Assembly (NCBI GenBank): GCA_029782365.1 | Contig: JAKOUW010000076.1 | Coordinates: 124,001-188,000 of the forward strand | Direction: 5' to 3' | Length of the DNA: 64,000 nucleotides | Source: Chloroflexota bacterium | Lineage (GTDB): Bacteria; Chloroflexota; Anaerolineae; Anaerolineales; UBA4823 | In this document: in pieces, positions 48,627 to 53,822 of the stretch | Layout of the letters: each line of letters starts with the position of its first letter | Numbering within the stretch: the first letter of the stretch is position 1 | Made by a program: the position numbers and the translations under genes | Notes under the pieces: generated by a model | Told to the model about the DNA's origin: nothing | The model's input: the letters and a program-made list of their open reading frames with translations, nothing else | The model's database searches: none

Positions 48627-50143
48627 AGAGAGTAGTCCTAATCGGCGCAGGCATTGGCGGCCTGGCAACAGCGGCTGTCTTAGCGAAGTCGGGTTATGAT
48701 GTGACAGTCTTAGAAGCGCACGTGTACCCGGGAGGCTGCGCGGGTACGTTCTACCATCAGGGTTATCGGTTTGATGCCGGTGCAACCCTGGCAGGTGGAT
48801 TTTATCCCAGCGGGCCTATGGATGTCGTGGCAAAGGAAGCAGGCATCTCAGGTTGGGCAGGCATCCTCGATGAGCTTGCTATGGCGGTACACATGCCTAG
48901 TGGGCAAGTTGTCCGGCGTTGGTCAGATGAGCGCAGCCTGGAAGAATCTAAGGCGGTTTTTGGTGATCAAGTGGAAATGTTTTGGCGTTGGCAGCAGAAG
49001 ACCGCGGATGCATTGTGGAATTTGGCCTTACGCCTGCCCTCTTGGCCTCCTAAGGGATTGGAACAGATTAGCCGGCTGGCATTCACTGGATTATCCTGGA
49101 TCCAACAAGACCCGGTCGGCCGGTTATCGCCGGTACTGTTTGCGGATATCATCCGGCCAGTAACCTATCACCTGAGGGGTTTACCTGAGGCATTCCGCCT
49201 ATTTGTAGATGGCCAGTTGCTCATTTCTGCTCAAACAACGAGCGAACAGGCGAATGCGTTGTATGGGGCTTCTGCCCTGGATTTACCCCGCAGGGGCGTC
49301 ATGCATTTCCAGGGAGGCATAGGCACAATTGCTGAGACATTAGCCCATTCGGTAGAACAAAATAAGGGGAGAGTGATCTACAGGCAGGAAGTTAAGCGTA
49401 TCATTTTTGAAAATGACAAACCGGTTGCCGTCGAAGGAAAAAGAAAAGAGAGATTTGATGCTGATATCGTCGTGTGCAATCTCACCCCATGGAATATTGC
49501 CCAATTGACCGAGGATTCTGGTTGGGATCGAATGAAGTGGTTTTCCGATCGATCCGAACATTTTTCAGTATTTGACTCTGGGTGGGGCGCCTTTACAGCC
49601 TATATCGGTTTTGATGGCTCGATTGTCCCAAAGGATTTTCCACTGCACCAGCAGAAAATATTTGGGGAGCCGTTGGGAGAAGGGAATTCGATATTCATGT
49701 CATTAAGCCCCGAATGGGATGTTTCACGCGCTCCTTCAGGCCACCGGACCCTGACGATTTCCACCCATACACGCCTGGAACCCTGGTGGAGACTTTTTTC
49801 CGATGATCCTGCAAGATATGAACAGAAAAAAGAAGCGTTTCTTCAGGAAATTATCTGCAAAGTAGAGCAAATCTTACCGCAGTTGACAAATGCTATCCAC
49901 CTTGCGCTGCCCGGCACGCCGGTGACATTTCAACGCTTCACAAGACGAAAAGCAGGGTGGGTAGGCGGGTTTCCTCAAAAAGATCTATTTCAAGCCTGGC
50001 CAGCCCGCCTGGCGCCGGGTCTTTGGATGGTTGGGGACAGTATCTTTCCTGGGCAATCGATTGCGGCTGTTGCTCTGGGGGGGGTGCGCATAGCCAAAGA
50101 GATAAAAAGCTCGGATAATATCGAAAGAATGCAGCCCATATGA
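48623..50143 (+). CDS. CrtI/phytoene desaturase-like FAD-dependent oxidoreductase
   Basis: [41 protein letters not shown] dinucleotide fold; [26 protein letters not shown]-term. Confidence 0.9.
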
Positions 50144-51555
50144 CTACGGCAATTTGGTGGCTGCGGCGAGACTTACGATTAGCCGATAACCAGGCTTTGC
50201 TTCAGGCGGCTGAACGAGCAGATAAGATTATCCCACTCTTCATTCTCGATCCCGCATTATTGAATTCCAAATACGTTGGACCAAAAAGGATATCGTTTCT
50301 TTTTGCCAATCTTCGAGAACTTGACCTCAACCTAAGGAGCAAAGGCAGCCGGCTGATTCTCCGACAGGGTGATCCGCTCCAGATCCTAAACGAAATTGTG
50401 ACCGAAAGCGGCGCACAAGCAATTTATGCTGAAACAGATTATTCTCCGTACGCCCGCAAGCGTGATGAAAGAATTAGCCGGTCACTTCCTATCCACCTTG
50501 TAGGCTCACCTTGCGTTTTTCCTCCGGAGTTTGTTCTCAAGCCCGATGGAACTCCTTATAAGACTTTTACGCCATTTTGTAAAACTTGGAAGTCTCTACC
50601 AGATCCAGGCAAACCGCTCCCTGCTCCAAGCCAGTTGGTTACTCCTGAATCGATCGCCAGTCTTGAGATTCCCATACCCGCATATAACGAGATGCCGATG
50701 GTTTTTCAGCCTGGAGAAGCGGCAGCCCACCTCCACCTGGAGCGTTTCACAATTGGCTTTGAAGCGCCTATTGGACATTATGATGAGGACAGAAATATAC
50801 TCGCATTGGAAGGCACTTCCGGATTATCACCCTATTTGCGTTTTGGAATTTTGTCTGCTCGTCAGGCAGTACACGGTTGTCGTTTGGCGATCAGCAACGC
50901 GGGTACGGTCGACGCCCGAAATTCAGCCGAGACCTGGTTAAATGAATTAATATGGCGGGAATTCTTCATTTCAATTTTGTATTATTTTCCGCATGCAAGG
51001 CAAGAAAGTTTTCAAGAAAAAATGCGCTATATTCCCTGGCATAATGATCCACTAACTTTCGATGCCTGGAAGCATGGGAAGACAGGTTTTCCGGTTGTGG
51101 ATGCTGGAATGCGCCAGTTGATAAAAACCGGATGGATGCATAATCGGGCGCGTATGATAACGGCGTCATTTTTGACAAAACATTTATTAATCGATTGGCG
51201 CTGGGGAGAAATGTTTTTCATGCAGCATTTGATAGATGGTGATCCAGCGTCGAATAATGGCGGTTGGCAGTGGACAGCTGGCACCGGAGTGGATGCGGCA
51301 CCCTACTTTCGAGTGTTTAACCCGATTACCCAAGGGGAAAAATTTGACTCTGATGGCGTTTATATTCGGAGATGGGTGCCTGAATTAAAAGAGGTACCAA
51401 CTGAATATATTCACCAACCCTGGTCGATGCCAGAATGGGCACAAGACAAATACAACTGCCGGATTGGCAGAGATTATCCATTTCCGATCGTGGACCATGC
51501 AACTGCACGCCAATTGGCTTTGGACACATTTTCAATGGCTCAGAAAGCGAAATAA
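50140..51555 (+). CDS. phrB: Deoxyribodipyrimidine photo-lyase
   Basis: [59 protein letters not shown]. Confidence 0.95.
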
Positions 51556-51659
51556 TTTCGGGATTTTTCTTCTTCGAAAGAATTCATGCAAGTTACTTTG
51601 GAATCACAGTGAGGCGTTATAATGCGGTATCATCCTGTCTGGTTTATAAAAGAGGTTTC

Positions 51660-52364
51660 TTGGATATAGCACCGGCACCCGATACATACATCCGCTTGTT
51701 CCAACTGTGCAAACATTATCAAGAAGGAGAAATTTCTCGCCTGGTTCTCCAAAACGCCAGCGCGCAAATCCGCTGTGGCGAATTTGTTGCCATTTTAGGG
51801 AAATCGGGAAGCGGTAAAAGCACTTTGTTGAATCTGATCAGCGGCATCGATCAGGTGGATTCGGGCGAAATTTGGTTTGATGATCAGAACTTGACGGCGA
51901 TGAGTGATTATCGTCGGACGATTTTCAGACGTATGAACACTGGTTTTATTTTCCAATTCTTCAACTTAATTCCTACTCTCACAGTCTGGGAAAACACCAT
52001 CTTACCATTGGAATTAAGGGGGAAACCTGATCGGCAGGGTTTAGAACGAGCAGAGAGTTTACTCGCCGAAGTCGGGCTGATCAGCCGGCGCAACACTTTT
52101 CCAGACCGATTATCTGGCGGCGAGCAGCAACGTGTGGCATTGGCACGTGCCTTAGTTCACAATCCTCAACTGGTATTGGCAGACGAGCCCACGGGTAACC
52201 TGGATGAGGAAACCGGAAAGCAAGTGTTGGATTTGTTGGATCGGCTAACTCGCCAGTCAGGAAAAAACCTGATTATGGTAACTCACAGTAATGAGGCAGC
52301 AAAATATTCAGACCGGGTCCTACTACTGCGTGATGGAAAGTTGGAGCCAATAGAAATTCTATAA
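51660..52364 (+). CDS. ABC transporter ATP-binding protein (LolD-like)
   Basis: [54 protein letters not shown] start MDIAPAPDT chosen because the longer ORF runs into phrB. Confidence 0.9.
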
Positions 52365-52387: not shown

Positions 52388-53512
52388 ATGTTGAAAATTG
52401 AAAAGATTGATACTTCAAGTAGATCGGAGGTTAATGATTTTGTTCGTTTACCTTACCGACTCTACCAGAATCATGCACAGTGGGTTCCTCCGTTATTTAT
52501 TGATGCGAACATGCAGCTAAACCGGCAAAAGCATCCATTTTATGAACATTCCGACGCGGACTTTTGGGTCGCCAGGCGAGATGGAAAGGTTATTGGTCGA
52601 ATTGGGGTCTTGGAAAATCGCCGTTTTAATGATTACCACCACACAAAGGAGGCTACATTTTACCTCTTTGAATGCGAGGATGATTCTGAAGCAGCGAGCG
52701 CTCTTTTTGATCGAGCATTTGAATGGGCTCACCAACGCGGCTTGGATACGCTGATTGGGCCGAAAGGTTTTGGGGTTGTGGATGGTTATGGTATGGTCGT
52801 TGAGGGATTTGAACATCGGCAAATCATGACTATGATGAATTACAATTATCCCTATTACCCTAAGTTGGTTGAAGCGTTGGGGTTTGAAAAGGAAGTGGAT
52901 TTTGTATCGTGTTATCTGCCAGGCGATTTCCATTTACCAGATCGTATTCACCAGATTGCTGATCGAGTCCAACAACGCGGCACTTTAAGAGTCCAACGAT
53001 TTCAAACGAAGAAAGACCTGAAGAATTGGTCGGATAAAATTGGCAAAGCGTACAATTCAGCATTCGTACATAACTGGGAGTATTACCCGCTGACAGAGCG
53101 AGAGATAAAATTTTTACTAGACAATCTGCTGACGATCGCTGATCCAAAGTTGATTAAAGTGATTACACATAATGACGATGCCGTGGGGTTCTTGTTTGGT
53201 TTCCCGGATGCTTCGGCAGCGCTGCAGCGCGCAAAAGGACATCTTAATCCTGTTTCCCTGGTCGATTTATTAATTGATCTCAAGCGGACCAAATGGATCG
53301 CATTGAATGGGGCTGGCATCTTACCTGAATTTCAAGGACGGGGTGGAAATGCGCTGTTATACACGGAGATGGAAAAAACAGTCCGGGATTATCATTTTGA
53401 CCATGCGGATTTAACCCAGGTTGCTGAGACTGCTGTAGAAATGCGTGCGGATTTAATAAAATTGGGTGGAAAGATGTACAAAAACCATAGAGTATATCGC
53501 AAAAAAATTTAG
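52388..53512 (+). CDS. GNAT-like N-acyltransferase
   Basis: DFWVARRDGKVIGRIGVLENRRFNDYH, GPKGFGVVDGYGMVVEGFEHRQIM. Confidence 0.75.
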   Translation: MLKIEKIDTSSRSEVNDFVRLPYRLYQNHAQWVPPLFIDANMQLNRQKHPFYEHSDADFWVARRDGKVIGRIGVLENRRFNDYHHTKEATFYLFECEDDSEAASALFDRAFEWAHQRGLDTLIGPKGFGVVDGYGMVVEGFEHRQIMTMMNYNYPYYPKLVEALGFEKEVDFVSCYLPGDFHLPDRIHQIADRVQQRGTLRVQRFQTKKDLKNWSDKIGKAYNSAFVHNWEYYPLTEREIKFLLDNLLTIADPKLIKVITHNDDAVGFLFGFPDASAALQRAKGHLNPVSLVDLLIDLKRTKWIALNGAGILPEFQGRGGNALLYTEMEKTVRDYHFDHADLTQVAETAVEMRADLIKLGGKMYKNHRVYRKKI

Positions 53513-53521
53513 CAATTTTTC

Positions 53522-53550
53522 TTGACGCCGCTATCCGAGCGTGGTAAACT
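53522..53550 (+). promoter_or_regulatory. Promoter of the small leader ORF
   Basis: TTGACG (53522-53527), 17 nt, TAAACT (53545-53550). Confidence 0.6.
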
Positions 53551-53591
53551 CTATACGTCTTAATTTCCGAATCGTTTGAAAGGAGGCGTGC

Positions 53592-53651
53592 ATGTTTAAT
53601 GAGAAATCGGTGCTTGTTGCATTCAAGCTGTTTGTGCACGCCTGCTGCTAA
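53592..53651 (+). CDS. 19-aa leader-peptide-like small ORF ending in Cys-Cys
   Basis: GAAAGGAGGCGTGC-ATG; MFNEKSVLVAFKLFVHACC*; below the size cutoff of the supplied ORF track. Confidence 0.6.
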   Translation: MFNEKSVLVAFKLFVHACC

Positions 53652-53684
53652 GTTTGAGTACGTGATTTCTTACTGACACTAAGG

Positions 53685-53720
53685 CCACGGGCGCGCACAA
53701 TCGCCCCGTGGTTTTGTTTT
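53685..53720 (+). terminator. Intrinsic terminator 1 downstream of the small ORF
   Basis: CCACGGGCG / CGCCCCGTGG stem followed by TTTTGTTTT. Confidence 0.85.
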
Positions 53721-53771
53721 AAGCGGGTTCTTGATTCAATCAAGCTATACCCGAAAAATAGATTTATTATT

Positions 53772-53805
53772 GCCAGCCACGGGTTCGAACCAGGCTGGCT
53801 TTTTT
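53772..53805 (+). terminator. Intrinsic terminator 2, just upstream of rsgA start
   Basis: GCCAGCC / GGCTGGC stem with inner GGTTCGAACC, followed by TTTTTT. Confidence 0.8.
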
Positions 53806-53822
53806 GTTAACAGGATTTCAAA

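Follow-up and report, generated by a model that had tools for sequence, protein, structure and literature searches.

A short-ORF leader with alternative pairings upstream of an RsgA paralog, probably one of a family of ribosome-dependent attenuators in Chloroflexota

The leader upstream of rsgA2

In the 64,000-nucleotide stretch of Chloroflexota DNA analysed here (the window), a paralog of rsgA, designated rsgA2, is preceded by a promoter, a short leader ORF and two terminators (Table 1). The coordinates of the promoter, Shine-Dalgarno sequence, ORF, complementarity and terminators had been given in an earlier reading of the letters without database searches (the sequence-only reading), and a check of the sequence found them accurate to the base. 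Upstream, an ORF of 374 amino acids (window 52388-53512) ends 10 nt before the leader promoter; the upstream neighbour, an ABC-transporter-like ATPase ORF (51435-52364), overlaps the end of the ORF preceding it (50140-51555).

Table 1. Features of the rsgA2 leader and of the gene behind it (window positions)
Feature	Position	Strand	Evidence
Promoter: TTGACG (53522-53527), 17 nt, TAAACT (53545-53550)	53522-53550	+	sequence; recurs in relatives
Element 1, GAAAGGAGGCGTGCATG: Shine-Dalgarno and leader-ORF start codon; pairs with element 2	53578-53594	+	complementarity, coevolution, compensatory changes
Leader ORF, 19 codons, MFNEKSVLVAFKLFVHACC and stop; GGAGG, then ATG at 53592	53592-53651	+	short ORFs in relatives
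Element 2, TTGTGCACGCCTG: end of the leader ORF; partner either 1 or 3	53632-53644	+	pair counts, slide control
Element 3, CGGGCGCGCACAA: loop of terminator 1 and inner part of its left arm; antiterminator with 2, terminator with 4	53688-53700	+	coevolution
Terminator 1, AAGGCCACGGGCG...CGCCCCGTGG TTTTGTTTT; right arm is element 4 (53702-53711)	53681-53720	+	pairing in relatives
Terminator 2, GCCAGCC...GGCTGGC TTTTTT; element 5, CCACGGG (53777-53783), mostly in the loop	53772-53805	+	sequence
rsgA2, rsgA paralog, presumed target gene, 330 aa	53823-54815	+	TIGR00157 match

The product of rsgA2 matches TIGR00157 at 232 bits (cut-off 100), and its G1 motif GKSGVGK and the residues of the Cys/His zinc site (C287, C293, H295 and C301) are invariant in 12 relatives. 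The source genome (6.8 Mb) carries two rsgA genes, the canonical copy (C135:42321-43196) being 44% identical to rsgA2. Many genomes from the family and order of the source genome carry relatives of rsgA2 (46-58% identical) alongside a canonical copy, and a phylogenetic tree separates leader-bearing RsgA from canonical RsgA with 99% SH-aLRT support. A single-protein scan of the genome contigs with the window RsgA returned no relatives, whereas an alignment query did recover them. The named carriers include Ornatilinea apprima, Longilinea arvoryzae and MAGs assigned to Bellilinea and Levilinea, and the carrier group is therefore the Chloroflexota, class Anaerolineae and kin.

Within the leader, AGGCGTGCA (53584-53592) and TGCACGCCT (53635-53643) are exact reverse complements, and GGCGCGCAC (53690-53698) lies within the left arm and loop of terminator 1. 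The pairing of elements 2 and 3 had been noted with one mismatch; it is present, but longer than first described, joining 53632-53637 to 53695-53700 and 53639-53644 to 53688-53693 around an A/C mismatch, with 12 pairs in all, one of them G-U. The right arm of terminator 1 is in turn complementary to element 5 (CCCGTGG, 53705-53711, with CCACGGG), most of which is dispensable for the stem of terminator 2; the sequence-only reading had not mentioned this complementarity. The fold of 53557-53822 surpasses 200 of 200 dinucleotide shuffles (z -3.3), and the window promoter, scanned on its own, scores no better than chance. Of two further hairpins, the CGGGT/ACCCG one (53724-53753), likewise pointed out before, is present in the window, but its conservation was not seen by eye in relatives. 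The other, CTTG..CAAG, falls within the leader ORF and is flanked by elements 1 and 2 (window 53612-53628); it occupies the same site in many rsgA leaders together with a recurring TCGGTGCTTGTT (SVLV) stretch, and is possibly a pause hairpin.

Coevolving pairings and a variable leader peptide

The same leader stands before rsgA2 in many Chloroflexota. The order upstream of the gene is a TTGAC(A/G) - TAxACT promoter, GAAAGGAG(G)CGC..ATG and a short ORF, followed further on by the ORF end GCATGGGCGCGCCTG and a terminator, GGCCACGGG(C/T)GCGC..CCCGTGG with a run of T; a second terminator with CCACGGG is often present. Of 168 leaders, 136 carry the promoter pattern, the median distance to the leader being 24 nt; shuffled sequences gave 3 and the region 190-300 nt upstream gave 4. 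The sequence-only reading had proposed an attenuator logic of 1:2, 2:3 and 3:4 pairings and suggested aligning the region upstream of rsgA in relatives. In this alignment both the ORF and the pairings are conserved, and the coevolution of 1:2 and 2:3 supports the proposed logic.

Pairs were counted in a MAFFT alignment of 24 rsgA leaders that was not fitted to structure. For 2:3, 87% of the pairs are standard, 7 of 13 pairs show double changes, and 21 cells are doubly changed where 5.2 are expected; pairing drops to 26-62% when the partner is slid by 1-3 columns. Terminator 1 is paired in 97.9% of cells, with double changes at two pairs. Compensatory changes are also seen in 1:2, and in four leaders (L037, L039, L041 and L049) a coherent G-C to A-U change runs through elements 1, 2, 3 and 4. 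An RNAalifold consensus fold recovered terminator 1 only, because element 2 can pair in two ways and element 1 is not evenly spaced among the leaders.

In a permutation test on 72 non-redundant leaders (20,000 permutations), the duplex energy of a leader's own elements was compared with that of elements from mismatched leaders. The ORF-end region gave z -10.1 with element 1 and z -10.2 with element 3 (terminator left arm and loop), 0 of 20,000 permutations being as low in either case, whereas the control pair 1:3, not required by the model, showed no coevolution in these leaders (z 0.4); relatedness is only partly removed in this test and weighs equally on the control. The pairing of element 4 with its own downstream region reached z -5.7, and a downstream complement of at least 7 nt is present in 35 of 91 leaders, against about 4% in shuffles. 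This 4:5 complementarity, found mainly in rsgA and RIO leaders and absent from most exporter leaders, is more weakly supported than 1:2 and 2:3.

A short ORF follows directly after the Shine-Dalgarno sequence in 164 of the 168 leaders, with a median of 22 codons and mostly 16-36. It is open through element 2 in 85% of leaders, against 46% with shuffled interiors, and its stop codon lies a median of 15 nt beyond element 2, near enough for a terminating ribosome to cover this element. Examples of peptides in the rsgA set are MFNAGSVLACNRAVWARLPFGRVC, MLRKVAVLDTVQDAWARLHAAV, MSYLKSVNVLDNAWTRIQVTG and MDSRIVERVINRILCVRLEAAG. Between close relatives, substitutions outside element 2 number 169, 202 and 227 at codon positions 1, 2 and 3, and the codon differences, in pairs that are not all independent, comprise 98 synonymous and 329 non-synonymous ones. 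Synonymous bias had been put forward as a check on the leader codons, and these counts suggest that translation of the ORF is kept while the peptide is hardly constrained. Moreover, element 2 is read in differing frames by sub-class (AWARL, SRSAPVDR, HACC). Together, the loosely constrained peptide and the shifting frame make a sensor of specific codons, cysteine included, unlikely. No motif common to the leader peptides of the family, such as a conserved arrest motif of the macrolide RLR type, was found.

Leaders before several gene classes

A covariance model built from the 24 rsgA leaders was used to search 396 genomes of the class (E <= 0.001) and matched 87 places in 73 of them. Among the 85 proteins encoded behind these leaders, 24 contain ABC_tran (17 with an exporter membrane domain), 22 RIO1, 18 RsgA (including about two weak P-loop cross-matches of ABC-F proteins), at least 10 GNAT, 3 MFS and 3 tRNA-synt_2, the last (behind L159, L175 and L190) being aspartyl-tRNA-synthetase-like by sequence. 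Two of the ABC-F proteins (L149 and L154) pass the NCBI cut-off for 'ribosomal protection-like ABC-F', and one MFS protein (L139) is closest to TetA(P) efflux pumps, yet falls under the specific cut-off.

A second covariance model, built from 89 leaders, was used to search 400 genomes of the phylum; since it was built from matches of the first, its E-values are not independent. The genes behind the new leaders outside the model (n=58) encode 26 ABC, 19 GNAT, 11 RIO1, one MFS and one peptidase M24 protein, so that 57 of 58 fall into the classes already found with the first model. As the model is blind to downstream genes, this agreement independently supports the reality of the leaders. In the source genome, the first model had given the rsgA leader as the sole confident one; the second recovered it (E 7.5e-16) and added four, before an ABC ATPase (6.4e-6), an ABC exporter (2.9e-5), an MFS transporter (8e-5) and, the weakest, a RIO kinase (0.005). 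Across 26 control genomes of other groups, reached through loci other than those of three named Anaerolineae carriers, the second model gave one match only, in Slackia; it precedes a glyA-like gene, has no plausible leader ORF and was rejected as false.

Apart from a tRNA, nothing in the window or at 20 related loci matched an Rfam family at its gathering score, and a known Rfam RNA family was accordingly rejected. A literature search, with most subscription journals outside it, found no paper on this leader family; the remark in the sequence-only reading that no leader of such form had been described before rsgA thus holds. That reading had also considered a stand-alone micropeptide RNA, which leaves the repeated placement before the same gene classes unexplained. 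We conclude that the leader probably belongs, in Chloroflexota, to a family of homologous transcription attenuators that depend on the ribosome and whose genes would be induced by blocked early translation.

Some leaders depart from the common plan. In two leaders of Longilinea arvoryzae (L289 and L290, before ABC-F and MFS genes) and in L052, the Shine-Dalgarno sequence has apparently been lost and the ORF begins close behind the -10 box, as if leaderless. Such leaders seem to have no element 1, and so no 1:2 pairing, while element 2, element 3 and the terminator are kept. Several exporter leaders (L118, L128, L232, L242, L251 and others) carry a small GACCG..AGGTC hairpin spanning the stop codon of the leader ORF. 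Finally, rsgA2-like genes are present in MAGs labelled Armatimonadetes, WOR-3 and Eisenbacteria (L040, L047 and L055), each with a short ORF upstream whose end apparently complements its own Shine-Dalgarno region and which went unscored by the second model; these genes may reflect transfer or misbinning.

Ribosome position, the candidate switch and known systems

We folded 89 leaders at the stage of transcription immediately preceding synthesis of the right arm of terminator 1, with ribosome footprints masked. With no ribosome present, element 3 pairs with the ORF-end region at a mean probability of 0.59; this becomes 0.78 when a ribosome occupies the start codon and 0.22 when it occupies the stop codon. 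In 88 of the 89 leaders, occupancy of the start codon makes 2:3 likelier than occupancy of the stop codon does (0.78 vs 0.01 in the window leader). In the window transcript truncated at this stage, 2:3 has the advantage even when no ribosome is present, so that 1:2 must act by forming first; in the complete window leader terminator 1 wins at equilibrium in every ribosome state, and the switch must therefore be kinetic.

Whereas the anatomy, homology, pairing coevolution and gene classes are observations, we infer which way the switch works, what induces it and how the genes are expressed. The simplest reading consistent with the folding would be a leader that is off without translation, off with full translation and on with a ribosome held near the start codon. 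Without translation, 1:2 would form and terminator 1 (3:4) with it. Under normal fast translation, the ribosome at the stop codon would sit on element 2 and 3:4 would again form. A ribosome that halts or lingers on the start codon, or directly behind it, would instead cover element 1 and leave element 2 free, such that 2:3 could form before element 4 is made, terminator 1 would fail and the gene would be transcribed. In a subset of leaders, those of the rsgA type, the freed arm 4 could in addition bind element 5, making terminator 2 less effective. The signal would be blocked early translation, caused by translation inhibitors or initiation defects, with little dependence on peptide sequence, and the output a dispersed regulon for resistance and translation repair comprising RsgA2, RIO kinases, ABC-F proteins, ABC and MFS exporters and GNAT enzymes.

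The same strands could also report ribosome availability: frequent initiation at the leader ORF would cover element 1, 2:3 would form, and the genes would be on when translation is strong and off when free 30S subunits are scarce. The Shine-Dalgarno sequence and start codon are themselves the switch strand, and masking element 1 always favours 2:3, which speaks for this alternative. It is nevertheless unlikely, given that resistance pumps, ABC-F proteins and GNAT enzymes are expected under impaired translation and that the terminating ribosome, with the stop a median of 15 nt beyond element 2, covers that element. Nascent-peptide arrest, in which class-specific C-terminal motifs (AWARL in rsgA leaders, SRSAPVDR in exporter leaders) would stall the ribosome in the presence of a drug, accounts for the recurrence of SAP and APV tails in exporter, GNAT and RIO leaders; these tail residues are, however, what element 2 encodes, and that element is under constraint at the RNA level; elsewhere the peptide is under hardly any constraint, and a stall at the tail would cover element 2 and favour termination. 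We regard it as distinctly improbable.

For the sensed signal, the sequence-only reading had offered cysteine or ribosome state, and the second guess agrees with the switch proposed here. In the trp and his leader-peptide attenuators, a short ORF is combined with mutually exclusive 1:2, 2:3 and 3:4 helices, and the Chloroflexota leaders share both, but have no run of control codons and no biosynthetic target. An attenuator of this style, sensing cysteine or another amino acid through the codons at the end of the leader ORF, would suit the window ORF, which ends Cys-Cys-stop, yet this ending occurs in one of 164 peptides, the window's own, element 2 is read in different frames and no biosynthetic genes lie downstream. 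Cysteine sensing was rejected on the peptides of relatives, none of which ends in Cys-Cys, and on the nearly even spread of changes over codon positions, and amino-acid attenuation in general is very improbable. That the locus merely holds tandem terminators of the usual kind behind the upstream gene, the ORF and the complementarity having arisen by chance, is scarcely credible and was rejected: intergenic terminators are common and the promoter scan alone is at chance level, but conserved promoters, ORFs and coevolving pairings stand before defined gene classes.

The preferred switch, induced by ribosomes held near the start codon, is of a type already known from vmlR and hflXr, precedents with this three-structure logic that other groups have tested. 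In Bacillus subtilis, vmlR is induced by drugs that stall initiating ribosomes, and variants of its uORF still work (PMC9226507). Its leader, which controls an ABC-F gene, likewise comprises a uORF in an anti-antiterminator hairpin, an antiterminator and an intrinsic terminator (PMC9226507). The likeness is one of architecture: the vmlR uORF has three codons and serves a single gene, whereas the ORFs described here mostly have 16-36 codons, their leaders are copied before many genes, and the Shine-Dalgarno sequence and start codon form the switch strand. In Listeria, hflXr/rli80 is a short-ORF attenuator with anti-antiterminator, antiterminator and terminator over a paralog of a ribosome-associated GTPase; it differs in the RLR macrolide-arrest motif of its ORF, in its target (HflX rather than RsgA) and in belonging to Bacillota (PMC6310831). 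Judged by sequence, the Chloroflexota leaders share with this type a Shine-Dalgarno-led short ORF, exclusive helices and genes countering translation inhibitors, and would be expected to share its drug-induced, translation-dependent read-through. New are the leader family itself and the scattering of its homologous copies, as cis-elements, over a whole gene set within one phylum, the family-wide use of the Shine-Dalgarno sequence and start codon as switch strand, the possible two-terminator relay and the link to RsgA2 and RIO kinases.

The gene set resembles the antibiotic-induced WblC/WhiB7 regulon of Streptomyces (Actinomycetota), which includes aminoacyl-tRNA synthetases, ABC transporters, ATP-binding cassette proteins, GNAT and MFS proteins and the RsgA paralog SCO6149, with uORF attenuation upstream (PMC7157823). 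There, one attenuator controls a transcription factor that activates the regulon, whereas each gene of the Chloroflexota set has its own attenuator. By analogy with hflXr and SCO6149, attenuator control of rsgA2 would not stand alone. RIO kinases are unmentioned in the text of the WblC/WhiB7 paper (PMC7157823), and their place in a translation-stress response is a new suggestion. We give about even chances to the broader view that Chloroflexota possess a dispersed, cis-acting counterpart of the WhiB7 regulon, which would read ribosomes held at the start codon regardless of the peptide, and in which RsgA2 and the bacterial RIO kinases would be unrecognised ribosome protection or repair factors. 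With the leader family, a candidate translation-stress regulon can be read from sequence alone in a large and poorly studied phylum, its genes being found by the covariance model, and two puzzling families, the second RsgA and the bacterial RIO kinases, would gain a physiological context, with the prediction that both act together with ABC-F proteins and drug pumps. The leaders also form a natural series, with varied peptides and conserved pairing, suited to asking whether start-codon occupancy alone is the signal. The aspartyl-tRNA-synthetase-like genes behind L159, L175 and L190 recall the aminoacyl-tRNA synthetases of the WblC regulon.
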